A stretch of 64,000 nucleotides of DNA from Dyella sp. GSA-30 (GTDB lineage Bacteria > Pseudomonadota > Gammaproteobacteria > Xanthomonadales > Rhodanobacteraceae). The position numbers and the translations under genes are program-made. Below the pieces are notes generated by a model, which did not search any database, was not told the origin of the DNA, and saw nothing but the letters and a program-made list of their open reading frames with translations. Below, one piece after another: positions 29,904 to 60,373 of this stretch. Numbering within the stretch: the stretch's first letter is position 1; every line of letters begins with the position of its first letter. The stretch is from assembly GCF_027924605.1 (NCBI RefSeq), contig NZ_AP027042.1, positions 4,317,524 to 4,381,523 on the forward strand, read 5' to 3'.

Positions 29904-32900
29904 TTATGGCTTTACATGAGGAGGAGGAACCTCCCAATCAATAAGAGGAACTTGGAAGCTTGGACAGCGCTGATTGTGATCTTTAGCAAGTTTGTTGTAA
30001 GAAGCCGTGATACCGCGCTGAACCTGTGCCTCAACATCTTTACCAAAGAACACCAGCAAAGCCAGCTTTTTCGCATAGAGAAGCATGAGCGCCTGTCGCT
30101 CCTGCTCGCAACCGTTGTCGCCGGGGCAAGTTTGCGGGGGCGGCTTTCTGCGGTTTACCGGAAACGGAATGACGTTCGACCTACCGGGTGGCGCTTCATC
30201 ATTCGGGCCACCAGCAGTACTCGGCCATACAGACAAACCTATACCGCAAAGAACCGGATTGGCAGCACAGGCCTCGATAACTACCCCGAACCCTAACTCC
30301 GGATCTTCGGGATCTACTACTGGGTCATTCGCAGGGTCACCAAAACTAGGAACTCGACCCGTGGGGGGCCTCTGCGTTGTCGTCGACGGCTCTTTGACTG
30401 GAGCCGTCCTAGCTTCAAGTCCTTGTGGATCAGTGAGACCAAGCGGCGCACCGTTTACATAAGCATAGGAGCTCATTCCACCAGCCAGACCAACCGGGTC
30501 ACTTTGCAAATATCGGCCCGTGGCTGCGTCGTAGTCTCGGTTCACATTGTAAGCCACACCGCGCTCTTGGTCGAAATATTGGCCCGGGTAACGCAAATTA
30601 AGGGCATACCCATTTGCGCTAACGGGCTGCTTTTCGCCAAACGGATTACTTTGATATGGCCACTGCCAAATTAGAGTTCCCGATGCATCGCTGATGGATC
30701 TAGGCGTCCCCGCGCCATCTGCAACCACGAAGTTCACGGACGCCGTTGAACCTAAGCCGTCCACTGCCGCAATAGGAAGATCATCCATCCAAACGTAGTC
30801 GCGATTTGAACTCCCGTATTCACCGATAAGTCGACTGGTCTCATCGTAAGCGAACCGCTCGTTGAAGGCTTGGGGTGTCGTTGCCATTTTGGCGATACGC
30901 TCACCCGACGCATTATAAGTATAGGTACCTACTGTTACATTGTTTGCTTGAGCCACCGTCAAACGATTACGACCATCGTATCCAAACCCAAACGTCTGCC
31001 CGCCAGTTGCATTCCCTGTTGTGTTGCCATTCAAGTCATACGACCTGGCTGAACTACCAATGCTAGTCAACCAATGCGTACCTGACTGGTAACTATACGT
31101 TCCAGCCGCCAATCCACCTGTGCTGGTTTTGCTTAAACGGTCACCCGTTTTGTTGTACGTATAAGACTCAACTGCATTGCCCTGGCTATCCAATACACCC
31201 GTCAACCGATAGAACGGGTCGTAGGTGTACGTCTCAGTCGGGGTAGGAGCGCCTGGCGTATTTCCAAGGCTCGCAATGCTTCCCATTACGTCGCGCGTAA
31301 AATGGAGACTGAAGCTTGGGCTTGCGAGATCCAGCAATCGATAGTTTTCGTCGTAGTTACGCGTTACCGCCTGGCCATTACCCAGTGTGTATCCCACTAC
31401 GGGACCAAACGGCAGATAAGTCACATTGCTCACAACGGCCTGCCCGGCCCCACCGCTGGGCGTGACAGTTACCGATGCAATTTGCCCAAGAATATTCCGA
31501 CCATACTTGGCTACTGAGCCACTTGGATAGGTAACTTGGTTTAAGCGATTGGCCAACGTGTAGCCATAGCTCGTAGTATCAGTGCTAGAACCCTGCGCTT
31601 GGAATTTCTGCACCACATTGCCACGATCATCGTAGCAATAGGTTGTGGTAACAGCATTCTCCACCACCCGGGTCAACCGACCAACCGGGCCAGCCCCCGA
31701 ACACCCCGTAACAGAGTTCAGCTCGTCATAGTGATATGTCACATTGAGCGTCGTATCGGCAAAGCTCACCGTTAGCAGACGATTGAGCGCATCGTAGGTG
31801 CTCGTACTAACTACCCCTTTCGCGTCGGTATGCGTCAAGCGGTTACCGGCTGCGTCGAACGTATCCGTGCTGCTTCCGGTATCAGGGCTTTGCAAACCAG
31901 TCCGGTTATCCAAACCATCGTAGGAGTAATGAGTGGCTAAGTTCGACGGATCGATGACCTGGGTAATGCGGTCCAACGCATCGTATGAGATGGCGGTCGT
32001 GGTGTTCTGAGTCGACACATCCGAACCATTGTAATTTTCAATGGTACTCGCCAAACGATCGAGGGCATCCAGCGTGCTCTTTTTCTGGATTCCAAAGCCA
32101 TCGCTGGACAGCACTAAGTTGCCATTTGCATCATAACTCCCGCCCGCACTGGCATCGAAAACGGTGTGACTCAGACCATCTTTCGCCTTGACCAACTGAC
32201 CCAACGTATTGAACTGGCGCGACAAACTATGAACAGGGGTCGCGCCACTAGAGCTGTAGATGTTTTCAGCCGTGCGATTGCCGGAAGCATCCAGGGTGTA
32301 TTGAATGTAGTTGCCCTGCCCGTCGGTTACTTTTGTAAGACGGTGTGCATTGTTGTAGCTGTAGGTGGTAACGATGCCGTCGGGATCAGTCATCGTCTCT
32401 ACAGCGCCATAAGGCGTGTATGTGTAGTTCGTCGTAGCGAAATCAAATCCTGTGGACCATGATGCGAGCCAGCCACGAGGTGTATAGGACATCGTCGATA
32501 TGATGCCGTTCTGGTCCGCCATGGTCGTGAGGCGGCCCGCACCATCGTAGCCAATGTAGGTCGTATGATGCCCCAGTGCATCCGTTACCGAGGAAAGGTC
32601 ACCATGGCGATGCAGGACGTTGTCGTCCATGAAATAGGCGTACGTTGTCGTGTCATTGACATCCGTGCGCGGCCCTGTCGCGGTCAGCAACAAGCCGACT
32701 AGCGGACATTGCACGGCATCGACACTCGCGCAATAGGTATACGTCCATCGCCGCACGCCAGCCGGAACGTTACCGGTATTGCTGCACTGATAACCCGTCG
32801 CCGCAGCATTCGTCGGATCGGCCTCACAATGCGCCAGCGTCTGGCCGATGGCGTTGTAGACCCATGCACTTGAAGCGACTGTGTTGCCAGCGTTATCCCG

Positions 32901-34583
32901 CACCACACGAGTCAACGGCAGTCGCAGCGATGTGTTCCAGGTGGTAGTGATCGTGCGCTGATTTGGCGTGTTGTAGGCATCCACTTCCTGATCGAGCAGA
33001 CCTGTGCTGTCGTAGGTTGTGTTGGTGATATTCCCATTGAAGTCCGTCCTGGACGATGTGTAGCCGTGGCTGTCGTAGCTAAGTGATTTCCATGGCTGAT
33101 TGCACTGGGTGCCGCATGGGACGGAACTTGCGGCGCTGCGGAAGCTACCGGAGGCGTCGGTCTGGGCCTGGAGATGAACCGATAGCCCAAGCGGCGTGGT
33201 GAGTGTGGCGGGGCCTGGATTGACGCTATACGTCACAGCCATCGCATCGGCGCCGCCAGCGAACGTGGACGATATGGCTTGGCCCTGACTGTTATAGCCA
33301 GTGCTAGCAAACCGGACACCGGCCTCATCGATAACCCCGGTAAGCGCTGTCGGCTGGCTTGTCCCCGAGTTCAGCGAAGCTTCGTTGTAGACATACTGAA
33401 GTACTTTCCCATCCGGATATTGCACCGACGTGAGATTTCCCGTGGTGGCGTCATAGCCATAAAGCAGCGTGCCGCCATCGGGCAACGCCACTTGCGACAA
33501 GCTGCCATTGCTGTTGTAGCTGAAATTCAACTGGCGACCACTCGGATCCGAGACGGTAAGCAGCAAGTTCGGAACGGGTGCGACGGAAGTTGGCGTGCTC
33601 GCCGTGCTATAGGCAAGCAGCGCCGTCTGACCGGTTTGATCCGTGATGGATTGAAGCAAGCCAGCCGCAGAGTACTGCTCGTACTCGCGGACCGATGCCA
33701 TGAACACGGTGTAGCTGACGGGGTTACCGCTGGCGTCGTCCTGCTCCGTCAAGGTATCGGCAATATCCGCGTCTGCGTGCCAGACGCCACCGCTCTTGAG
33801 AAACTGTTCGCTGCTCCCGTCTGGCCGATAGAGGACGATAAGGGAATCGTCCGACGCACCAGGGTTGGACAAAAAGATTGCCAGCGAGCGATCGAACGAG
33901 TGGCGCCACTGCGGCCCGAGGTTTGTCTGGGCGATGGCACCGGCCACACCTGCACCGCTGTTATAGAAGCGCCGGAAGGTCAGCCAGGACGACCCACGGA
34001 AGTCGGTGTCTTGCTCGTATTTGTTGCCCGTCGCGGTATTGATCGGGTCGCCAGCCATAGGCGTGCCAGAGGCGCCGCCCGTGCTGTCTATCGCGCTATC
34101 GCCACTGCTCTTCTTAGGACTGGATGCCGCCCCTTTGCCACCGTCGCCACTATTGCAATTGCAGCCACCGGCATTCTTGCCTACGTCGTAGGCCTGCGGC
34201 GTACCCACAATCAGTATCTCGTCGTGATCGAAGAAGCAGCTGCCACTGCCGCCGCCGTCGTTACCGCCATACGCCTGGCGGGCAACATACGGGCTCGGCG
34301 GATGGGCCCCGAAGTAAACCGGATCGATAAAACACGATCCCGTGCCGGTCCCGTACTCGGCATTGAGTACATTCGCCGCCGCCTGCATGGCGGCCTGCAA
34401 CGTAAAGTAAGGGCCTGGGCTTTGGCTGCCCGTTCCATTTCCATCGAGTTCGTTCAAGGTGAACGGCGGACCGTAGGTCTGTGCCTGAGCTGCTCCAGGG
34501 AAAGCGCAAACGGCCAACTGCAGCATCACCAGCACAAGCCATAGCGACCAACGCGGCCAACGACTCTTCATCATCCCAGACAT
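29904..34583 (-). CDS. exported RHS-repeat protein with unrecognised C-terminal domain
   Basis: 1559 residues behind AGGGGAATGT. N terminus: signal peptide (LWLVLVMLQLAVCAFPGA), a Cys/Gly-rich segment, then a DUF6531-like entry (GDPINTATGNKYEQDTDFRG). About 40 RHS/YD strands follow (YDANGNLV, YDALNRL, YDGLDNRTG). The conserved core ends with YDAATGRYLQSDPVGLAGGM and DPQGL near residue 1388. The remaining ~170 residues are a Pro-rich linker and a Cys-containing helical domain (CPGDNGCEQERQALMLLYAK) ending VPPPHVKP. The shell encloses a C-terminal toxin in this family. The toxin fold was not recognised and no nuclease motif is seen. A Sel1 gene follows. Confidence 0.85.
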   Translation of the reverse strand: MSGMMKSRWPRWSLWLVLVMLQLAVCAFPGAAQAQTYGPPFTLNELDGNGTGSQSPGPYFTLQAAMQAAANVLNAEYGTGTGSCFIDPVYFGAHPPSPYVARQAYGGNDGGGSGSCFFDHDEILIVGTPQAYDVGKNAGGCNCNSGDGGKGAASSPKKSSGDSAIDSTGGASGTPMAGDPINTATGNKYEQDTDFRGSSWLTFRRFYNSGAGVAGAIAQTNLGPQWRHSFDRSLAIFLSNPGASDDSLIVLYRPDGSSEQFLKSGGVWHADADIADTLTEQDDASGNPVSYTVFMASVREYEQYSAAGLLQSITDQTGQTALLAYSTASTPTSVAPVPNLLLTVSDPSGRQLNFSYNSNGSLSQVALPDGGTLLYGYDATTGNLTSVQYPDGKVLQYVYNEASLNSGTSQPTALTGVIDEAGVRFASTGYNSQGQAISSTFAGGADAMAVTYSVNPGPATLTTPLGLSVHLQAQTDASGSFRSAASSVPCGTQCNQPWKSLSYDSHGYTSSRTDFNGNITNTTYDSTGLLDQEVDAYNTPNQRTITTTWNTSLRLPLTRVVRDNAGNTVASSAWVYNAIGQTLAHCEADPTNAAATGYQCSNTGNVPAGVRRWTYTYCASVDAVQCPLVGLLLTATGPRTDVNDTTTYAYFMDDNVLHRHGDLSSVTDALGHHTTYIGYDGAGRLTTMADQNGIISTMSYTPRGWLASWSTGFDFATTNYTYTPYGAVETMTDPDGIVTTYSYNNAHRLTKVTDGQGNYIQYTLDASGNRTAENIYSSSGATPVHSLSRQFNTLGQLVKAKDGLSHTVFDASAGGSYDANGNLVLSSDGFGIQKKSTLDALDRLASTIENYNGSDVSTQNTTTAISYDALDRITQVIDPSNLATHYSYDGLDNRTGLQSPDTGSSTDTFDAAGNRLTHTDAKGVVSTSTYDALNRLLTVSFADTTLNVTYHYDELNSVTGCSGAGPVGRLTRVVENAVTTTYCYDDRGNVVQKFQAQGSSTDTTSYGYTLANRLNQVTYPSGSVAKYGRNILGQIASVTVTPSGGAGQAVVSNVTYLPFGPVVGYTLGNGQAVTRNYDENYRLLDLASPSFSLHFTRDVMGSIASLGNTPGAPTPTETYTYDPFYRLTGVLDSQGNAVESYTYNKTGDRLSKTSTGGLAAGTYSYQSGTHWLTSIGSSARSYDLNGNTTGNATGGQTFGFGYDGRNRLTVAQANNVTVGTYTYNASGERIAKMATTPQAFNERFAYDETSRLIGEYGSSNRDYVWMDDLPIAAVDGLGSTASVNFVVADGAGTPRSISDASGTLIWQWPYQSNPFGEKQPVSANGYALNLRYPGQYFDQERGVAYNVNRDYDAATGRYLQSDPVGLAGGMSSYAYVNGAPLGLTDPQGLEARTAPVKEPSTTTQRPPTGRVPSFGDPANDPVVDPEDPELGFGVVIEACAANPVLCGIGLSVWPSTAGGPNDEAPPGRSNVIPFPVNRRKPPPQTCPGDNGCEQERQALMLLYAKKLALLVFFGKDVEAQVQRGITASYNKLAKDHNQRCPSFQVPLIDWEVPPPHVKP

Positions 34584-45756: not shown

Positions 45757-46014
45757 TCAATGATCTCCTGGAAGAAAAGACGCCCCCTTCCGGAAATCAT
45801 CCCTCAAATGAGGTTGAAAAACAAGAAGCGCACTCAAGCTGACTCTGAAACCATGGTCTTCCAACCCTACTCTCGAGCTTCGATAGGTTCCGGCCCCTGG
45901 CATCCTTCTGTTTTTCGGAGGCTTCAAACCTCGTTCTGTAGTTCGGCAAGATCAGTTGCCCGACTGGGGGAACTGGGTGGCGCCACAGTCAGGGCTCGGA
46001 CAATTTCGTTGCCG

Positions 46015-46324
46015 AGTTTTCGGCGGCGAAAGTCACACCACACCTTGGCCCGCTCATCATAAAACCGAACTTCCCCTTCTCAGGCTTGCCCACCAAGGCT
46101 TCCACATGCCGGCTAAATGCCTTCGATAGCCAGTTCCCAGGCCCATTGACCCCACCGAGCTTCACCTTCGGAAACAAGCGGGTCTCCCCCGCCATCCGAA
46201 GCGCTTCAACCCGGTGCAGAAGGCCCAGCTCAAGCAAGGCCGGATGAACCGGAATGGTCCGAATGCTGGCCTCAGACTTCACCGACTGGCCTTTCCGCCG
46301 GTCTTGATGTGGCTGATCGAAGCC
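46015..46324 (-). pseudogene. tyrosine-integrase remnant
   Basis: A fragment reads SVKSEASIRTIPVHPALLEL, LRMAGETRLFPKVKLG and WLSKAFSRHVEALVGKPEKG, matching the catalytic domain of phage-type integrases (the R..H.R.Y core is not reached). After this the sequence shifts frame and becomes unrelated. Broken integrase, marking an older island edge. Confidence 0.7.
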
Positions 46325-46571
46325 TTCTCGCACAGGAGCGCCACCCTCGATCCTTTGCTGATGGGAGGTCGGGGAAGCACGCAGAAGGCACCGAAGCCAC
46401 TTCAAAAGTTGATGCGGCGCGGTTCTCAAAGCTCCATGAGACATGTAACCTCTCTCATCGCATGAAGGACAGGAATTCCTGGGGCGCGACTAACTTTTCC
46501 GGAAAGTATTGACCTTGCAATAAATCCGTGTAGCCTCCAAATTGGGATAGTGCAACTTGGAGATGCGTGCG

Positions 46572-49603: not shown

Positions 49604-50050
49604 TTACTTCCCGCACGCAGCCGGGCATGGCTTCCCCTTCGGCGGTGGCATCGGCTCCTTTACTTGAGTCAGGGCGTTCGCGAAGGCCGTTTTGTCCACC
49701 GCAAACTTTTCGTTCCCATGCCGAACGATGCCGCTGTTGTCGACAAAGTAGACATCACCGGGGGCCAGGATGACCTTCGCCCGCACGTAACCCGGCATGT
49801 AGCCCTCCGAGGCGGAGCGAGACGAAAGTAGTGCAAGAAAGGCTTGCCGATTGACGGAGTAACGGCAGAAGCGTGCGCTGTCCAAGTCCGCCTCCTTCTT
49901 GCCCACCGGCGCCTCGCTGCGAAAATCCCAGAAGCACACTTCCACGTCCGATGCTCCCAGTTGCAGCGGCGGATGATCGGCCCACGCCAGGCCCGCCATC
50001 AGGACCAATGCTCCACTGACAAATCGCACCATGAAGAGGTTCATGATCAT
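49604..50050 (-). CDS. exported small Cys protein, possible immunity to the mini-Rhs peptidase
   Basis: 148 residues from ATG 50050 (GTG 50053 and ATG 50044 are alternatives; GGGAAG precedes). Signal peptide (VRFVSGALVLMAGLAWA). The mature part has a strand pattern (ASDVEVCFWDFRSEAPVG, RAKVILAPGDVYFVDNSGIV), several Cys and a Pro/Lys tail (PPPKGKPCPAACGK). Its start overlaps the stop of the mini-Rhs peptidase by one base, the strongest sign of coupling. Because both products are exported, it could be the periplasmic inhibitor of the peptidase. No family recognised. Confidence 0.6.
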   Translation of the reverse strand: MIMNLFMVRFVSGALVLMAGLAWADHPPLQLGASDVEVCFWDFRSEAPVGKKEADLDSARFCRYSVNRQAFLALLSSRSASEGYMPGYVRAKVILAPGDVYFVDNSGIVRHGNEKFAVDKTAFANALTQVKEPMPPPKGKPCPAACGK

Positions 50051-50652
50051 CACTTCCCGGGCTCGTAGTAGCCAGTCCGTGCGGGATACCCCATCTCCGC
50101 ACGCTCTGGGTTTTCAATCATGCGCACGTTGTCGCCCAATAGGTCCGTGGCCGTCGCGTTGTCGAAGTAAAAGATATGCCCCAACTCGTGACCGATCACG
50201 ATCGGAAGTGTGGCGCGCTGAAGTCCCGCCGTCGTCGGGATCATGGGCAGGTGGCACGGATCCACAAAAACTGTGGTGTCGTGGCCATTGCAGTCCGGCT
50301 GACTGCCATATTGGCAATATTGATCAAAGTTCGGGTCATGGGTGACCTGGATCTTGTAGACCATAGCCGAGGCTTCCAGCATGGCGTTGTAGGAGCGTGC
50401 TGTCGCGGAACGGGCATTCAACTGCGCGTAGGCGTTCATCAGTTGCTGCGCCACCGCCGGATTGCCCTCAACCACGCGCACAACCAACCCGGTGGGATCG
50501 ACGAACCTGAGCGGGTTGTTGCCCACATAAGCATACGTGTTCGGCCCACCCTTCAACCCGATCGGGTCGGATTGAAGGTAACGGGCCTGCGCGGAGGTCC
50601 CGAACACCAGGGCACCCATTGCCACGACGATCGCCAAGAGTTGCTTGATCAT
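50050..50652 (-). CDS. exported mini-Rhs zinc metallopeptidase
   Basis: 200 residues from ATG 50652, six bases after AGGGAG. A signal peptide ([20 protein letters not shown]) is joined directly to the last ~33 residues of an Rhs core ([30 protein letters not shown]), with no repeats before it. Then a ~140-residue domain: HELGH at residues 155-159 and downstream [18 protein letters not shown], matching the EN-R-E-G-P-R-Y motif after the HExxH in M91/Tox-HExxH toxins. So an Rhs toxin tip has become a stand-alone exported peptidase. Operon: transglutaminase-like gene upstream, exported partner downstream. Confidence 0.8.
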
Positions 50653-50654
50653 GC

Positions 50655-51413
50655 TCATCTCCCTGTTTGAGCCTGTTGGGCTTTGACCTGTTGGATGGAC
50701 CGCAGATAGTCCGCCTTGTGCTTGGGTGTTTCCTCGACCCAGCCCAAGGCTTCCGCACTATGGAACATATCGATGTTGTTGGCATGGAGCACCGCATACT
50801 GGTCGCGCAACTCCGGCGGAATAGCGTCGACGCTCCCATATTTGCGAAGAAACTTGTCGTCAATGAGCGCGGCATACGCTTCTCCGCGCCACAGCCACCC
50901 GCTCACATTGGTCATGTCGGTGGTCAGCACGCGTAGGGTCAACCCGAGCAAGTCGTCGGGAGCGCGGTGATGCCGGTAATACTGTTCGAGCGTGTCGACC
51001 ATCACCAAGATCTCTTGCTGCTTGGTGAGGGATCGCAGGTAAGCCCCGGATTGGATGGCGCGCGAGGTGATAGCCAAGTCTTCCTGGTAATGCGCATCGG
51101 ACACCGTGCCGAAGGATGTCGCTTCGATGTTCAACCACGAGCCATCGCCCCGGCGCACCCGTGCAAACACATGGGCGGGCGCGCTGACCAATGTGGCCTC
51201 GATGCCCAATTTCTGACTGAGCACGACCAGCAGCACCGGCATCGACACACAGTTGCCTTTGCGCGTGGCGAGATATGTGGACAGCATCTTGTCCTTCGGG
51301 TCCTCGCCCAACGGGTTGTCCAAGTCGTAGCGAAATGGCCGATTACCATTCCACGGCCCAGCGGTCTGCAATGAGTTCAACAGCAACCCGATCTTGACCT
51401 CGTTGTCCGTCAC
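50655..51413 (-). CDS. transglutaminase-like (SirB1-type) protein
   Basis: 252 residues, GTG start coupled to the preceding stop. Transglutaminase/SirB1-like core: [20 protein letters not shown] (Cys of the triad, C74), [20 protein letters not shown] (His) and a following acidic strand. TPR-like C terminus ([38 protein letters not shown]). Its stop overlaps the mini-Rhs start region by three bases. It may modify, cross-link or process partners, or be an inactive scaffold. No signal peptide. Confidence 0.7.
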
Positions 51414-53339: not shown

Positions 53340-53351
53340 GCGGAGAGAGTG
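53340..53351. other. candidate attachment repeat, left copy
   Basis: GCGGAGAGAGTG, followed by GGATACCG. It reads as the 3' end of a tRNA-Ser gene on the minus strand (complement CACTCTCTCCGC). Only this edge remains, and no complete tRNA is present. The same 12 bases recur at 55131. Confidence 0.45.
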
Positions 53352-53609
53352 GGATACCGTACGGTTCTCTCCCCTACCCCGTAAATCAAAGCCCTCCAGG
53401 TGGCGACCGCCCGCGGTTGAGTGTCCAGGGGAAGTGTTTATGCGAACGTAGCAAAGCTGGGTCTCAGAAAACAATATAGTCAGTCTTCTATAAAGTTAAA
53501 TGTCCATTGCGCGCCCCATTATGAGCGCCTAAAAAAGGAGTTGCAGCAAGATATGGCGTTCCGCTCCAATCGTGAGTTAACTTAGGCCATCCAACATGGG
53601 GATGGCAGG
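53352..53609. other. leader of the nuclease gene
   Basis: About 258 bases with a second hairpin arm TTCTCTCCCC (near 53366-53374) facing the att repeat and an AT-rich region near 53480-53550 suited to a promoter. No small gene supported. Confidence 0.3.
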
Positions 53610-55058
53610 ATGCTCGTTTCAAAATTCTTCAAGCTTGGCCGCCATCAGGCGACTCTCGACTTCCTTGATGTGCACATCGACAAGGACCTACCTGTCTTTG
53701 TCGACCCTTCCGCCCTTCGCACATTACGCTCCGAATGGGGCCACCACTGTGTTTCGCTGCTCCAGACTTACTTCGAGACCGTGCTTGCCGCCATGAGACG
53801 CGGAGACCATGTAACAGCTAAAGCCTTACTGGCGTGCCTTAGTGAACGAAACGAATTCCATCTGGGATTTTCCAAGCGAAAGTCACGAGGCCATGCATTG
53901 GGCCCTATCTCCGCCGAGCGTATTTGGAAGTCGCTGATTTCGAGCAAAGCCGCGTCTTCCGGCCTCCTAGAAGACCTCGAAGATACCGTGCTATTCGTAG
54001 AAGGTGTTGGCCCAGATATGCTGTCCGATGCCGTATGCAATATCATCCGCGGCCCGCTTATCAAATACACCCAGCAAGCGTGCAACTATTATGGCATCCC
54101 GCTCACTCCGGGCTTAGATTCTGGCCCAGTATGGAACCCCCAAGCTGAAAAGTGGGAAACCAGCCTCATCGAATTACCTCTCACCAAAACCGGGCCCATC
54201 ATCTTGGTCCCAAAGGTGATTGTTCGCGTATCCCAAACGTATGGTGCTGATGAGTATTACCGACATTTTCTAATGCCAGTGCTTCAGCAGCATCATAAGG
54301 ACATAAATTCGCAATTTGTCCATGTACTCCGATCAAAGAAAAACAAGGGAAAGAAAAAGGTCTATAAAAAAGACCTATATGAGGCTTACGGTGCAGACAA
54401 ATTAGCCGCAGCCAAGCTAACAGCGGAACATCCTGGCGCTCTCGCCAATTACCGCGAGACCAAAAAACTCAGCACTACGCAGCCACTTGACCATGTTGCG
54501 CTGTCAAAGCTAGAGAACACCGCGCCACCAGATTTGGGGGCGCTCATTGACGGCGTGAAAGCCGTGAAACCGGGCAAAGAGATGGCTCATGACTATGAGG
54601 TAGCCATCGAAAAATTGCTATCGGCTGTGCTGTATCCATCCCTGGCTTCGCCAGTCAAGCAGGATAAAATTCATGACGGCCGAAAAAGAATAGACATTAC
54701 ATATATTAATGAAGCAAAGCACGGCTTTTTCGACTGGCTCGCTCGGAATTACCCTGCGTCACACGTCTTCTTTGAGTGTAAAAACTACGGAAAGGAAGTT
54801 GGCAATCCGGAGTTGGACCAATTGTCAGGAAGGTTCTCCCCATCCCGAGGACAAGTAGGCATCCTTGTCGTCCGCTCGCTCGAAAACCGGACGTTGTTCT
54901 TGAAACGCTGCAAGGACACAGCGAACGACCACCGCGGTTTTATCTTAGTGCTCGAAGACTCGGACCTGCCGCGCCTTGTAGCAGACCGAGGGAACATACT
55001 GGCTGATGGAATGGGGGACAATCTGCTCTATCAACAGTTCAAGCAACTGATCTACTAG
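53610..55058 (+). CDS. PD-(D/E)XK nuclease, candidate single-gene defence system
   Basis: 482 residues. C-terminal nuclease core: E334 in YEVAIEKLL, D362 in RKRIDITY, and E389-x-K391 in HVFFECKNYG, then LDQLSGRFSPSRGQVGILVV. All catalytic positions are kept (compare restriction endonuclease and archaeal Holliday resolvase folds). Residues 1-330 are helical with no recognised family; a Lys-rich loop (RSKKNKGKKKVYKKD) near 242-255 may contact DNA. The gene stands alone between two tRNA-end-like repeats, as a cargo would. Confidence 0.7.
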   Translation: MLVSKFFKLGRHQATLDFLDVHIDKDLPVFVDPSALRTLRSEWGHHCVSLLQTYFETVLAAMRRGDHVTAKALLACLSERNEFHLGFSKRKSRGHALGPISAERIWKSLISSKAASSGLLEDLEDTVLFVEGVGPDMLSDAVCNIIRGPLIKYTQQACNYYGIPLTPGLDSGPVWNPQAEKWETSLIELPLTKTGPIILVPKVIVRVSQTYGADEYYRHFLMPVLQQHHKDINSQFVHVLRSKKNKGKKKVYKKDLYEAYGADKLAAAKLTAEHPGALANYRETKKLSTTQPLDHVALSKLENTAPPDLGALIDGVKAVKPGKEMAHDYEVAIEKLLSAVLYPSLASPVKQDKIHDGRKRIDITYINEAKHGFFDWLARNYPASHVFFECKNYGKEVGNPELDQLSGRFSPSRGQVGILVVRSLENRTLFLKRCKDTANDHRGFILVLEDSDLPRLVADRGNILADGMGDNLLYQQFKQLIY

Positions 55059-55130
55059 AGAGATTACGGTGCAAAAAAGCAAAAAAGGGTCAGAGACATT
55101 TACAGCCTCGACCCCGTTCCTTCCTTAATG

Positions 55131-55142
55131 GCGGAGAGAGTG
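55131..55142. other. candidate attachment repeat, right copy
   Basis: TGGCGGAGAGAGTG with the CCA-derived TGG retained (tRNA-Ser 3' end, minus strand), 1791 bases right of the left copy. It lies between the nuclease and the integrase gene, so it can also be the attachment site of the integrase at 55319. Confidence 0.5.
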
Positions 55143-55318: not shown

Positions 55319-56536
55319 ATGGCCCTGCTTACCGACACCAAGGCGCGCAGTGTCAAACCGGGAGGCGCACCGCTTGCACATGGCGGCGTTACCGGGTTGG
55401 CACTCCACCCCTCCCCCAGCACCAAAGGGCAAGGCAAGTGGGTTCTCCGCTATGTCAGCCCCGTCACCAAGAAGCGTCGCAATGCCGGGCTAGGCAGCTA
55501 CCCCGACGTCAGCCTTGCTGAAGTGGCACGTCAAGCCCGCTTCATGCGCGAACAGATCGCTCACGGGAAAGACCCTTTGGAGATCAAAGCCAACGAGAGC
55601 GCCAAACCCCGTATCCCTTCGCTGGACGAGGCAGCCAAGACCCTGCACAAGGAACTGGCGCCTGGCTGGAAGAACTCCAAGCATGCCAAGCAGTGGATCA
55701 ATACCCTCACGGAGTACGCCTTCCCGTTGATCGGCTCGATCCCCCTCGATCAGATCCAGCCCCGCCATATCGCTGACGTACTTCGACCCATCTGGCTGGA
55801 AAAGGCCGAGACGGCGGGACGAGTCAAGCAGCGGCTGCATGCCGTCATGGCTTGGGGTTGGGCACACGGTTTCTGCCTCTCCAATCCGGTTGATGTAGTG
55901 GGCCATCTCTTGCCAATCCAGCCAGGAAAGACGGCCCGCACTCAGCATCAACCAGCAATGCCCTGGGTGCTGATCCCAACCTTCATGGCCGAGCACTTGT
56001 CGCCGAGCTTCGATGTGTCTCGACAGGTGCTGGCCTTCCTTATACTGACTGCAGCTCGGTCGGGTGAGGTGCGGCACATGACCTGGAGCGAGGTGGACTT
56101 TAAAACCAAGCTCTGGACGGTCCCGGCTGAGCGAATGAAAGCCAGGCAAATCCATCGTGTGCCGCTATCCAAGCAAGCCGTGGCGCTTCTCAGGCATCAG
56201 GAAGGTCAACACAAAACACTGGTGTTCCCCTCGGTGCGGGATCGCACTCCGCTATCGGACATGACTTTGACTGCCTTGTTGCGGCGCGAGGAGGCGGTCA
56301 GTGATGTCCCCGGGCGGAAGGCGACAGCACATGGCTTTCGATCCAGCTTCCGCGACTGGTGCAGCGAGAAGGGCTACGCGCGGGATCTGGCCGAAAGGTC
56401 ACTGGCGCACGCGGTGCAGAACAAAGTGGAGGCGGCCTACCATCGCACTGACCTGCTTGAGCAAAGGCGCCCCATGATGCAGGCATGGGCTGACTTCATT
56501 GCCCCCTCTACAGCTGCCCCGATTAACTTGAAATAG
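55319..56536 (+). CDS. P4-type tyrosine integrase
   Basis: 405 residues. An N-terminal DUF4102-type arm-binding domain (LTDTKARSVKPGG, GKWVLRYVSPVTKKRRNAGL), central SAM-like domain and the catalytic domain with R in AARSGEVRHM, HGFRSSFRDW, H in SLAHAV and Y in AAYHRTDLLE. Its upstream neighbour is a tRNA-end-like repeat, as usual for integration at tRNA genes. The downstream genes (56709-60373) are its probable cargo. The last ~67 codons recur as a separate remnant at 60422. Confidence 0.9.
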   Translation: MALLTDTKARSVKPGGAPLAHGGVTGLALHPSPSTKGQGKWVLRYVSPVTKKRRNAGLGSYPDVSLAEVARQARFMREQIAHGKDPLEIKANESAKPRIPSLDEAAKTLHKELAPGWKNSKHAKQWINTLTEYAFPLIGSIPLDQIQPRHIADVLRPIWLEKAETAGRVKQRLHAVMAWGWAHGFCLSNPVDVVGHLLPIQPGKTARTQHQPAMPWVLIPTFMAEHLSPSFDVSRQVLAFLILTAARSGEVRHMTWSEVDFKTKLWTVPAERMKARQIHRVPLSKQAVALLRHQEGQHKTLVFPSVRDRTPLSDMTLTALLRREEAVSDVPGRKATAHGFRSSFRDWCSEKGYARDLAERSLAHAVQNKVEAAYHRTDLLEQRRPMMQAWADFIAPSTAAPINLK

Positions 56537-56708
56537 CTCAATTGCGGGTTTACGCCATCCGCTAGCTGCTTAGCCCCTCCTTGGCCCGCTCGACCCCTCT
56601 CTAAAGTTTTATCTCGTGCTACCGTAAATACTTAAGGAAATATTTAGTACGCCCCGCCATTACGTGATCATTAGCCAGCGGGGCAAGGAAGGGCATGGAG
56701 GTAGACTG

Positions 56709-57872
56709 TTGAACGCAACAATGGTCCAGGTAACCAGAAGGACGAAACACGCCGCGCCCGGCCCCTATCTTGGGTTCGGCCTGCAAACAGTTCGCCTCTG
56801 CTATCACCTCATCACCGCACCTGGCGATGCCTCCGTTTCGGTTGAGTACGAAGACGATGTCTCCGTCCATTACGCCGACGGCTCAGTCCTACTGGAGCAG
56901 ACCAAGAGCGCACTGAATAGCGAGCCCCTTGCCAATCAGGCTGTTGACCTATGGAAAACGCTTGCCAATTGGACCACCTGGGATCCACATCCGCCCACCA
57001 GGGCAACCGCCATCGACTACCACCTATACGTTACCCCGGTGAAGTCGGGAGAGCTTGTGGTGCGCATGTCGAAAGCGGCAACCACCGACACAGCGAAAGA
57101 GATACTTAAAGAGATCGCTGGGCTACGTACATCCAGTACAAAGCCTCCGGTCTGGCAACAGCATCTTCGCCTCTTCCTTTCAGCCCCACCCAAGACGCAA
57201 GAATACCTGGTGTCACACTTCTCCGTGACCAGCGCGGATGCCGACCCTCTAACCCCCATCCGGGAACGCCTTGCACCGTTTGTCGGAAGTGACCTACTCG
57301 AAGAAGTGTGCAGACAGATCATCGGCTACGCCAAAACCGAATCCGACACCCTGCTCCGCCGAGGATTGCCAGGGACCGTTAAGGTAGAATCCTTCCGCCA
57401 CTATTTGCAGGGATTTTTACGCAAACTCCAATCCCCGGCGCTGTTTTCCATTGCTCCGAAACCAACACCTCTCGCAATCCAACACGAACTGCAAGAGGCG
57501 CCCGTCTTCGTTCGCCAACTGGGCCTGATACAAGCCTCGGATCAGCAACTACTGGCATCAGTATCCGACTACCTTCAGACCATCGCTGACAAAGTACTTT
57601 GGGCCGCAGACGGAAAGATATTTCCTGAAACTCTGGAGCGCTGGGAACAGGATCTTCTTGGGTTACATCAAAGCGTACAAACTGACGTAACGCTCTCCCA
57701 TCCACAACTAGAAGCACAAGATGCAGGCAAGCTTGTCTACGTCAGGTGCCGCCAACTGCAGGCAAGCATCGATACGCACGTGGCGACGCCTTGGTTTATC
57801 CACGGAAGCCTACACGAGCTGGCAAATGACCGACGCCTCGGCTGGCACCCCGACTATATCGAGCTTCTTTAA
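56709..57872 (+). CDS. ABC-three-component system nuclease (Cap4/DUF4297-like)
   Basis: A TTG start at 56709 lies six bases after GGAGGT; ATG 56721 is the next option. About 387 residues. N-terminal PD-(D/E)XK of the DUF4297/Cap4 type: a helix with GLQTVRLCYHLI, then VEYEDDVSVHYADGSVLLEQTKS, giving the D and QxK strand. The C-terminal ~250 residues are helical. It is the first gene of an operon with a middle-component protein and a DUF3732 ATPase, which together form an ABC-3C conflict system. DNA cleavage on activation is inferred from family. Confidence 0.75.
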   Translation: MNATMVQVTRRTKHAAPGPYLGFGLQTVRLCYHLITAPGDASVSVEYEDDVSVHYADGSVLLEQTKSALNSEPLANQAVDLWKTLANWTTWDPHPPTRATAIDYHLYVTPVKSGELVVRMSKAATTDTAKEILKEIAGLRTSSTKPPVWQQHLRLFLSAPPKTQEYLVSHFSVTSADADPLTPIRERLAPFVGSDLLEEVCRQIIGYAKTESDTLLRRGLPGTVKVESFRHYLQGFLRKLQSPALFSIAPKPTPLAIQHELQEAPVFVRQLGLIQASDQQLLASVSDYLQTIADKVLWAADGKIFPETLERWEQDLLGLHQSVQTDVTLSHPQLEAQDAGKLVYVRCRQLQASIDTHVATPWFIHGSLHELANDRRLGWHPDYIELL

Positions 57873-57886
57873 TTCGGGCCACGGAC

Positions 57887-58405
57887 ATGGATCAGACCGA
57901 ACACACGCACGTAACCCCACCCCCCTATTCGCTGTCTATTGTGGAGGTTGTGCAAAATCCTGGACTCGGCGCGACCCTTATTTGGTCAGCGACCAGCGGA
58001 CACTACACAGAGGTCGCTGCCGCGTTTCCATTGCATTTGGCGTTTCTCGTCCTTCCGATGGTGCTGCACTTCAAAACGCGGAGCATCATTTCAGATACAT
58101 ATAAGAGCTCGGGGCTCGCCAAATTTGCCTTCAAGTTCAAGGGACATGAAGACGATCTTCTCGCAATTCACACGAGAGCCCTTCTGCTTCGCACGCTGAC
58201 GCTTGACTCACTTTCAGCGGCATTCGCATCTAACCTGCTTTCGCTGGATTACACCAACGCCTCCGTCCTACCGACGAGGGTACGCGGGCGTCCGCCCCAG
58301 ACGCAGAATATCGAAAGCATGCTCGATGCGGCAACGAAACTTGGACACTGGTTCGCACGCCTTCCCCTACGACAAATTACCAGCATGCTTCGCGTGGAGC
58401 TTTGA
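57887..58405 (+). CDS. ABC-three-component system middle component
   Basis: 172 residues: EVVQNPGLGATLIWSATSGH, YSLSIVEVV, then LHLAFLVLPMVLHFKTRSII and a helical C terminus (TLDSLSAAFASNLLSLDYTN). These are features of the middle component that bridges effector and ATPase in ABC-3C operons. It lies 14 bases after the nuclease and abuts the ATPase gene (stop and start share a base). Function beyond bridging unknown. Confidence 0.75.
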   Translation: MDQTEHTHVTPPPYSLSIVEVVQNPGLGATLIWSATSGHYTEVAAAFPLHLAFLVLPMVLHFKTRSIISDTYKSSGLAKFAFKFKGHEDDLLAIHTRALLLRTLTLDSLSAAFASNLLSLDYTNASVLPTRVRGRPPQTQNIESMLDAATKLGHWFARLPLRQITSMLRVEL

Positions 58406-60373
58406 ATGTACTTCCAGATCTTGAAGCTTGTTCTTTGGCCTCGTAAAGGTGGCGAACCAAGGGTAGTTCCATTTGAACGCAACGTTGTCAACGTTATTAG
58501 TGGCGGGTCGAAGACCGGTAAATCCGCGGTCATTCCCATCATTGATTATTGCCTTGGATCTGAGCATTGTGCGATACCGGTAGGCAAGATTCGACAAGCC
58601 TGCAATTGGTTCGGGGTCGTTGTCGATACATCAGATGGCGAGATCCTGTTCGCTCGGCGCGAGCCAGGAGACGTTCGCCGCCAAGGCGATTTCTTCGTTC
58701 TGCAGGACACAACGATATCGGTCCCCCACACCATCGCAGACAAGAGCCACTCTCGCGAAGAAGTCAAAGAGCTTCTAAACCGCCTGTCCGGACTCTCGAA
58801 CCTGAGGTTCGAAGCCGACCCGGACGTGGGGTACAAGGCCAGAGTTGGCTTCCGCGACCTAATGGCCTTTGTCTTCCAGCCCCAGAACATTGTCGCAAAT
58901 CCGGACGTACTGTTCTTCAAGGCGGACACGACGGAGCATCGCGAGCGACTCAAAACGATCCTCCCTTATGTGCTCGGAGCCGTCACGCCAAGAACCTTGG
59001 CTGCCCGCCAAGAACTTGTTCAGGTCCAACGACAACTCAAGCGATTATCCGCAGACCTCAGGAGCATCGAATCGACTGCAGACCGGTGGGCCGCAGATGG
59101 CCGAAGCTGGCTGCAGCAAGCAATCGAACTCGGTCTCGCGCGCGAGTCTAGAATTCCGGATTCTTGGCCAGAGATCCTCCATCAACTGAGAGCGATTGCA
59201 AACGTCACGCACCCATCTGTTGCGCCCACCGTCCGAGGCGCGGAATCCACGATTCGACGCATCGCAAGCCTGCGCGAGGAAGTTAGGCGTCTTTCTTCAG
59301 AAGCAACCGACCATCGACAGCGCCTCGCAGAAATTCATCAACTTACTGAAAGCTCCAACCAGTTCGGCGGTGCGCTTGAACTTCAACGTGAACGTCTCGC
59401 ACTATCCACCTGGCTCCGAGACCGGTTTGAGGAACAAGACACTCCGTTTGAACGTCGAGCAGCGGATTCCGCCTTGATTGAGCGACTCTGTAGCGCACTG
59501 GGCTCAATCGAGCTACAAGTCCGCACGCAGCCCATGGTGAGAAACACCCTCGACAAGGAAGAGATTGAACGCAAGGCCGCGCTTGGAGCTGCCCTCGAAC
59601 GATTGGCAGGAGCGAAGAAAGAGCTTGCGGTCTATGAGCGATCCACTGCCGAAGCAAAGGCCGCTGGGGACAGGCTTGCCTTTGCCGAGCGCTTCCTCGG
59701 GAAACTGGAGCAGGCCATCAGCCAATATGACGATGCCGACCATACCCAGCCATTGCGAAATGAGATCGCCGCACTGTCCGCCCGGGAAGTCGCGCTGCGA
59801 TATGAAATCGATGATCAGTCCATCAGACGTAAACTGGATCAAGCCTTAGATGAAATCGAAAGGCTAACAGGGCGGTTGGTTCCGGACCTCGATGGCGAAT
59901 GGAAGACCTCGCCAGTTCGCCTGAACATTCAAGAACTTTCGGTAGAAGTCGATCGCGAAGGTCGTAAGCACTTCCTCTGGGAAATCGGATCTGGCGCGAA
60001 CTGGCTTGCGTACCACATCGCCATTACCGTAGCACTCCAGCAGTTCTTCGCCCGCAAGCCTCATCACGAAGTACCCGGCCTTCTAGTCTATGACCAGCCG
60101 AGCCAGGTTTACTTTCCGAAGCGCGCAAGCGAGACCGATGACGACAATAGCGATGACGGCGGTGTCGACTGGCGGGATGAGGATATTGAGGCCGTTAGGG
60201 CAGTTTTCGCCCTTCTAGGCCGAGTAGTCACCGACGCTAAAGCCCCATTGCAGGTCATCGTCCTCGACCACGCAGATGGCGAAGTATGGGGTGACTTGCC
60301 GGGCGTACAGTTGTGCGATCGCTGGCGTGATGGCGAGAAGCTTGTACCCGTCGCATGGCTGGAAGAGGACTGA
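58406..60373 (+). CDS. DUF3732 ABC/SMC-like ATPase of the three-component system
   Basis: 655 residues. Walker A GGSKTGKSAV near residue 34; coiled coil over ~190-460 (LVQVQRQLKRLSADLRSIES, AKKELAVYERSTAEAKAAGD); distal ATPase half with SGANWLAYHIAITVALQQFF and the DUF3732 hallmark VYDQPSQVYFP. The C terminus reads VIVLDHADGEVWGDLPG. This is an SMC/RecN-like sensor ATPase. It probably detects foreign DNA or stalled replication and releases the nuclease. The last gene of the operon. Confidence 0.85.
   Translation: MYFQILKLVLWPRKGGEPRVVPFERNVVNVISGGSKTGKSAVIPIIDYCLGSEHCAIPVGKIRQACNWFGVVVDTSDGEILFARREPGDVRRQGDFFVLQDTTISVPHTIADKSHSREEVKELLNRLSGLSNLRFEADPDVGYKARVGFRDLMAFVFQPQNIVANPDVLFFKADTTEHRERLKTILPYVLGAVTPRTLAARQELVQVQRQLKRLSADLRSIESTADRWAADGRSWLQQAIELGLARESRIPDSWPEILHQLRAIANVTHPSVAPTVRGAESTIRRIASLREEVRRLSSEATDHRQRLAEIHQLTESSNQFGGALELQRERLALSTWLRDRFEEQDTPFERRAADSALIERLCSALGSIELQVRTQPMVRNTLDKEEIERKAALGAALERLAGAKKELAVYERSTAEAKAAGDRLAFAERFLGKLEQAISQYDDADHTQPLRNEIAALSAREVALRYEIDDQSIRRKLDQALDEIERLTGRLVPDLDGEWKTSPVRLNIQELSVEVDREGRKHFLWEIGSGANWLAYHIAITVALQQFFARKPHHEVPGLLVYDQPSQVYFPKRASETDDDNSDDGGVDWRDEDIEAVRAVFALLGRVVTDAKAPLQVIVLDHADGEVWGDLPGVQLCDRWRDGEKLVPVAWLEED

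Follow-up and report, generated by a model that had tools for sequence, protein, structure and literature searches.

The nuclease gene framed by two tRNA-Ser end repeats at 53340-55131 most likely lies on a CIME-like remnant in a CIME-IME tandem, with a probability that we put at about 0.7 for the explanation as a whole, and would be the cargo of that remnant: a predicted Mrr-type nuclease of the candidate family PDC-M36A. The assignment to a CIME-like remnant is made because the left end of the nuclease unit is that of an element with a DUF6538-type integrase, and because the nuclease lies outside the element of the neighboring integrase. Positions refer to the window, which is the whole 64,000-nucleotide stretch of DNA that was analyzed, and the features are collected in Table 1.

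In the proposed sequence of events, a first element with a DUF6538-type integrase would have inserted at the tRNA-Ser gene and decayed to a CIME, losing its integrase and leaving the nuclease from its tRNA-distal end. A second element with a P4-type integrase would then have inserted at the same tRNA-Ser core, the tRNA-side att site, to give the tandem (core-nuclease)-(core-integrase-Lamassu...)-tRNA-Ser. The tandem and the identity of each of its ends can be read directly from sequence comparison, while we infer the order of events and the loss of the integrase. A three-step route of integration, decay to a CIME, and entry of a second element into the tRNA-side att site has been described for CIME-IME tandems (PMC5704250). 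Accretion in tandem is already known, and the nuclease unit would be a further example of it.

Table 1. Features at the nuclease unit and in its surroundings (positions in the window).
Feature	Position	Strand	Basis
DUF6538-type integrase, C-terminal remnant	45989..46444	-	54% identical to the G114 integrase over its residues 342-420
Left tRNA-Ser 3'-end core, GCGGAGAGAGTG	53340..53351	+	exact, one of 3 genome copies
Left end of DUF6538-integrase-type element, core and ~100-bp arm	53340..~53453	+	73-88% identical ends in 4 genomes
Stand-alone nuclease, 482 aa	53610..55058	+	N-terminal domain and predicted Mrr-type PD-(D/E)XK domain (D362, E389, K391, Q404)
Second core, left end of the neighboring integrase's element	55131..55142	+	same layout in relatives
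P4-type tyrosine integrase (Arm-DNA-bind_3, Phage_int_M, Phage_integrase)	55319..56536	+	domains and relatives
ABC-three-component / Lamassu-family operon (CTD7, MC3, DUF3732)	56664..60373	+	directly after the integrase

Both repeats are copies of a tRNA-Ser end

The sequence-only reading of this DNA had placed two flanking 12-base repeats, matching the complement of a tRNA-Ser 3' end, on either side of the nuclease gene, and its coordinates proved right: GCGGAGAGAGTG is exact and in the same orientation at 53340-53351 and 55131-55142. The whole genome (5,501,810 bp) contains three exact copies, all on the + strand, and no copy of the reversed control. The third copy lies beyond the window, 26.6 kb to the right of 55131, where a tRNA-Ser(TGA) gene encoded on the - strand, with serS upstream of it, has its 3' end. 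Because this third copy ends a tRNA-Ser gene, both repeats in the window are true copies of the tRNA-Ser end and constitute attachment cores. No tRNA gene was found within the 64-kb window itself. Rightward of 53340 the match to tRNA-Ser extends over 16 bases (GCGGAGAGAGTGGGAT, continuing to GGGAT), and at 55131 it is TGGCGGAGAGAGTG; all three cores share the same 12 bp and point in one direction.

The neighboring integrase belongs to a separate element

Seven relatives of the P4-type integrase, at 76-87% identity, have the core (exact or with one mismatch) ~190 bp upstream of the integrase start, followed by a related arm that starts with GACCGCCT or close to it. The next core is found on the integrase side, at 14.9 kb in G148, 18.9 kb in G063, 19.0 kb in G206, 41.6 kb in G193, 50.6 kb in G192, and 26.6 kb in the genome under study (G000), so that this layout, with its spacing of 15-51 kb, covers G000 plus at least five of the seven relatives. 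A core ~190 bp upstream of the integrase together with a next core on the integrase side identifies 55131 as the left end of this integrase's element, which is predicted to span 55131 to tRNA-Ser (26.6 kb) with the nuclease outside it. The nuclease had earlier been taken for a one-gene cargo mobilized by the neighboring integrase. Its character as a patchy, mobile cargo holds, but a position between the two att sites of the P4-type integrase is ruled out by the extent of that element.

The Lamassu-family operon that follows the integrase, to which PADLOC gives the labels LmuA, LmuC, and LmuB, belongs to the second element as its cargo, separate from the nuclease unit, and represents a second candidate defense system in the same tRNA-Ser array. 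Toward the right of the 26.6-kb stretch, by the tRNA-Ser gene, we noted genes that by eye resemble those for mercury-resistance regulation or transport and for chromate transport.

The left end derives from a DUF6538-integrase element

The ~100 bp after the core at 53340 recur, beginning exactly at the core, in G108 (88% identity), G172 (79%), G114 (78%), and G115 (73%). In G108 and G114, such an end marks the start of an element that finishes at tRNA-Ser beside a DUF6538-type tyrosine integrase, the two integrases being 72% identical, and that contains a MobA-like relaxase, named by sequence resemblance. The element is whole in both of these relatives: in G108 it lacks the nuclease and measures 13.5 kb, and in G114 it includes the nuclease and measures 18.2 kb. 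G172 and G115 have three-core arrays at the same tRNA-Ser, and no integrase was found in the segments of the G172 array. Stacking at tRNA-Ser therefore recurs, as these arrays in G172 (L142) and G115 (L143, L144) demonstrate. In the window, the DUF6538-type integrase remnant at 45989-46444 sits to the left of the nuclease unit, in a flank that is itself island-like and also includes Rhs genes. A large Rhs protein (RHS repeats, DUF6531) is encoded at 29904-34583 and a separate Rhs-core-like C-terminal fragment at 50050-50658, with small unknown genes between the Rhs pieces.

The unit resembles the segments in published CIME-IME and CIME-ICE tandems (PMC5704250), which are bounded by att sites, lack integration genes, and adjoin a second element at the same tRNA end. 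Both of its ends carry att-type repeats that match the tRNA 3' end, the nuclease is the sole substantial open reading frame within 53340-55130, and integration and transfer genes are absent there. It differs from those tandems in that a single gene is left and in that the 72 bp separating the nuclease from the core at 55131 do not match the right end of the parent, the DUF6538 element, and resemble it no better than shuffles do. Because these 72 bp are unlike that end, a simple internal deletion that kept both ends of the DUF6538 element is unsupported.

The nuclease has an Mrr-type catalytic domain and an N-terminal domain of no solved fold

Several lines of comparison place the C-terminal part of the protein among PD-(D/E)XK nucleases. 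Pfam Mrr_cat matches it below threshold (E 0.015) and is matched by 18 of 24 homologues, and the D, ExK, and Q motif (D362, E389, K391, and Q404) is invariant in all 24. E334, which had been listed with D362, E389, and K391 as catalytic, fared less well than these three: it is kept in only 16 of the 24 homologues and E330 in 15, and therefore the helix-1 acid is not family-wide at any single position. The AlphaFold2 model of the nuclease is confident (mean pLDDT 86, pTM 0.86), and a fold search with it returned a viral 'Restriction endonuclease' (E 8.5e-4, probability 1.0). AspBHI is the best fold match in the PDB, a weak one with E 0.004 and a low TM-score. PHROG 27295, of unknown function, matches the nuclease over nearly its full length.

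The N-terminal part, which had been described as unrecognized, indeed has no match in Pfam or NCBIfam, but is covered from residue 4 to 241 by a PADLOC model for PDC-M36A (PDLC04597, E 1.6e-43). A second model for the same family also matches the nuclease (PDLC04598, E 2.3e-15), and all 24 homologues match both models, which represent the N- and C-terminal parts. The fold search that the sequence-only reading had proposed for the N-terminal part still gave no solved fold: residues 1-238 modeled alone (pLDDT 83) had no match among solved structures (best E 0.72). E79, E82, D125, D136, S139, D140, and N144 in this part are invariant across homologues, which suggests that the N-terminal domain is functional and not just structural. 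Small plasmids of Bacillus and Acinetobacter (L086 4001-4948, L088 3980-4894) encode proteins of ~305-315 residues that match mainly the N-terminal part, and these suggest that it can act apart from the nuclease domain as well.

Taken by its motifs and family models, the protein is probably an Mrr-type nuclease of the candidate family PDC-M36A and an anti-phage or anti-plasmid enzyme, with a defense role suggested indirectly by family membership, fold, patchiness, and island context. In such an enzyme, the N-terminal domain would recognize a target or gate activity and the C-terminal PD-(D/E)XK domain would cut DNA. We lean slightly toward this description of a stand-alone, two-domain Mrr-type defense nuclease with the N-terminal domain as recognizer or gate. 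PMC11811056 presents PDC families as unpublished candidates, and a literature search found no paper on PDC-M36 and no functional evidence for the family.

With Mrr-type and type IV restriction endonucleases the protein shares a C-terminal PD-(D/E)XK domain with D...ExK and a conserved Q, the Mrr_cat matches of its homologues, and AspBHI as nearest PDB fold; unlike them, it has 238 N-terminal residues without a solved counterpart. Shedu (DUF4263) is a single-gene PD-(D/E)XK defense nuclease with an extra N-terminal part, an architecture that the protein shares. Identity with Shedu is ruled out, as none of the 24 homologues matches DUF4263. The nuclease stands alone here; the 'M' in PDC-M36A presumably means multi-gene, and no conserved partner gene was seen around its homologues in the loci read. 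Distant homologues on Leptolyngbya and Methylobacterium plasmids (L084 6410-7170, L085 5338-6083) are followed by two small, mutually similar genes, which are absent around the stand-alone version. A gene that by eye is DUF2971-like lies downstream of the nuclease at several unrelated loci (L149 12916-13773, L094 11545-12222) and also after a distant homologue in L022, and is a possible partner.

The nuclease is patchily distributed and recurs on tRNA-borne islands

Close copies of the nuclease are present in 5 of 233 genomes of the family, this genome included (71-93% identity among the others), with 4 further distant matches in the same set. In a sample of 398 genomes of the order, the nuclease occurs in eight, each of a different genus. 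An alignment query located 27 homologue loci, and single-sequence pattern searches in genome and viral contigs gave no match. Carriers include Stenotrophomonas, Dyella, Acidovorax, Pseudomonas, Halomonas, Streptomyces, Brevibacillus, and Flavobacterium, and the protein family ranges from Gammaproteobacteria to Streptomyces, Firmicutes, and Bacteroidota. The amino acid identity of the nuclease to its G114 counterpart (92%) exceeds that of serS (79%), which argues for horizontal transfer. The dN/dS between these two copies is 0.026, with dS near saturation at 1.58, and the nuclease has therefore been kept functional by purifying selection. These comparisons support the earlier proposal of a mobile cargo: the gene is patchy, has moved horizontally, and is not a housekeeping gene. 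No close copies of the segment were found on plasmids and no close copies of the protein in phage records; plasmids carry only distant relatives of the protein. In Curvibacter the nuclease copy (L104 9980-11431) is in two frames, from a frameshift or a sequencing error.

At four other loci the nuclease lies between a tRNA gene and a copy of part of it. In G154, the island is bounded by tRNA-Val and, ~3.0 kb away, a 35/39 copy of the 3' half of that gene, and has no integrase. The bounds are tRNA-Lys with a 46/48 copy in G019 (5.7 kb apart, with an integrase fragment), tRNA-Thr with a partial copy in Halomonas getboli (~3.4 kb apart, no integrase found), and tRNA-Ala with a 31/33 copy in Brevibacillus formosus (6.2 kb apart). 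The Halomonas island has 49% GC, vs ~68% in its flanks, and contains one DUF2726 gene besides the nuclease. A tRNA gene is within 2 kb of the nuclease at 5 of 22 loci (P 0.003-0.016 in a rough Poisson estimate that assumes 40-60 tRNA clusters per 4.5 Mb), and most homologues are not near one. Together, the loci support repeated carriage of the nuclease on tRNA-borne islands, at tRNA-Ser, -Val, -Lys, -Thr, and -Ala. No sequence beyond the nuclease gene was seen to be shared among the minimal islands, and the small islands could equally well have arisen by decay of larger ones or by independent movement.

Other routes to the same arrangement

The neighboring integrase might still move the nuclease if it recombined the core at 53340 with the tRNA-Ser core and carried a 28.4-kb composite, because in one reported tandem, whose integrases and att sites differ greatly, excision yields the single element as well as the entire composite (PMC5704250). 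The identity and shared orientation of the three cores would allow this, but the arm beyond the core at 53340 is that of the other element family and unlike the neighbor's own arm, and no relative with the same composite was found, so that we consider it unlikely. Somewhat more doubtful again is an integrase-less minimal island of one or two genes, moved in trans by resident integrases, of which 53340-55131 would be an intact example. The tRNA-Val unit of G154 and the tRNA-Thr unit of Halomonas getboli have the appearance of such islands, but the left end in this genome is the end of a larger, integrase-bearing element, nothing conserved besides the nuclease gene links the small islands, and independent decay yields the same picture.

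The nuclease could also be the engine of tiny integrase-less islands, cutting or marking an unoccupied tRNA site at which the island is copied or captured, and if so it would be a mobility enzyme and not only defense cargo. Its frequency near tRNA genes and the existence of islands without a recognizable integrase fit this proposal. However, most homologues lie away from tRNA genes, the target tRNA varies by island, the G108 element is complete without the nuclease, and the fold is Mrr-type, with homing-type families unmatched; we regard such a role as very improbable. Least credible, and in our view ruled out, are chance repeats around an ordinary chromosomal gene. Nothing was found in their favor, although a 12-bp repeat would by itself be weak evidence. 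In dinucleotide shuffles of the window, matches to the core with at most one mismatch averaged 0.38, and two were reached in 3 of 100. Only three copies exist in 5.5 Mb, one of them at tRNA-Ser, the arms at both cores in the window are conserved in relatives, and the nuclease gene is patchy. Chance repeats with no variation at the site, or a housekeeping gene in place, were the findings that the sequence-only reading had named as fatal to it, and our comparisons turned up neither. We retain the CIME-like remnant beside a second, P4-type element as the preferred explanation.

Under this explanation, a single candidate defense gene persists under selection after the element that carried it has decayed, and a second defense-bearing element can stack beside the nuclease remnant at one tRNA gene. 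The nuclease also offers a clear test family, in which a predicted Mrr-type nuclease with an N-terminal domain of no known fold recurs in small islands bounded by tRNA sequences.
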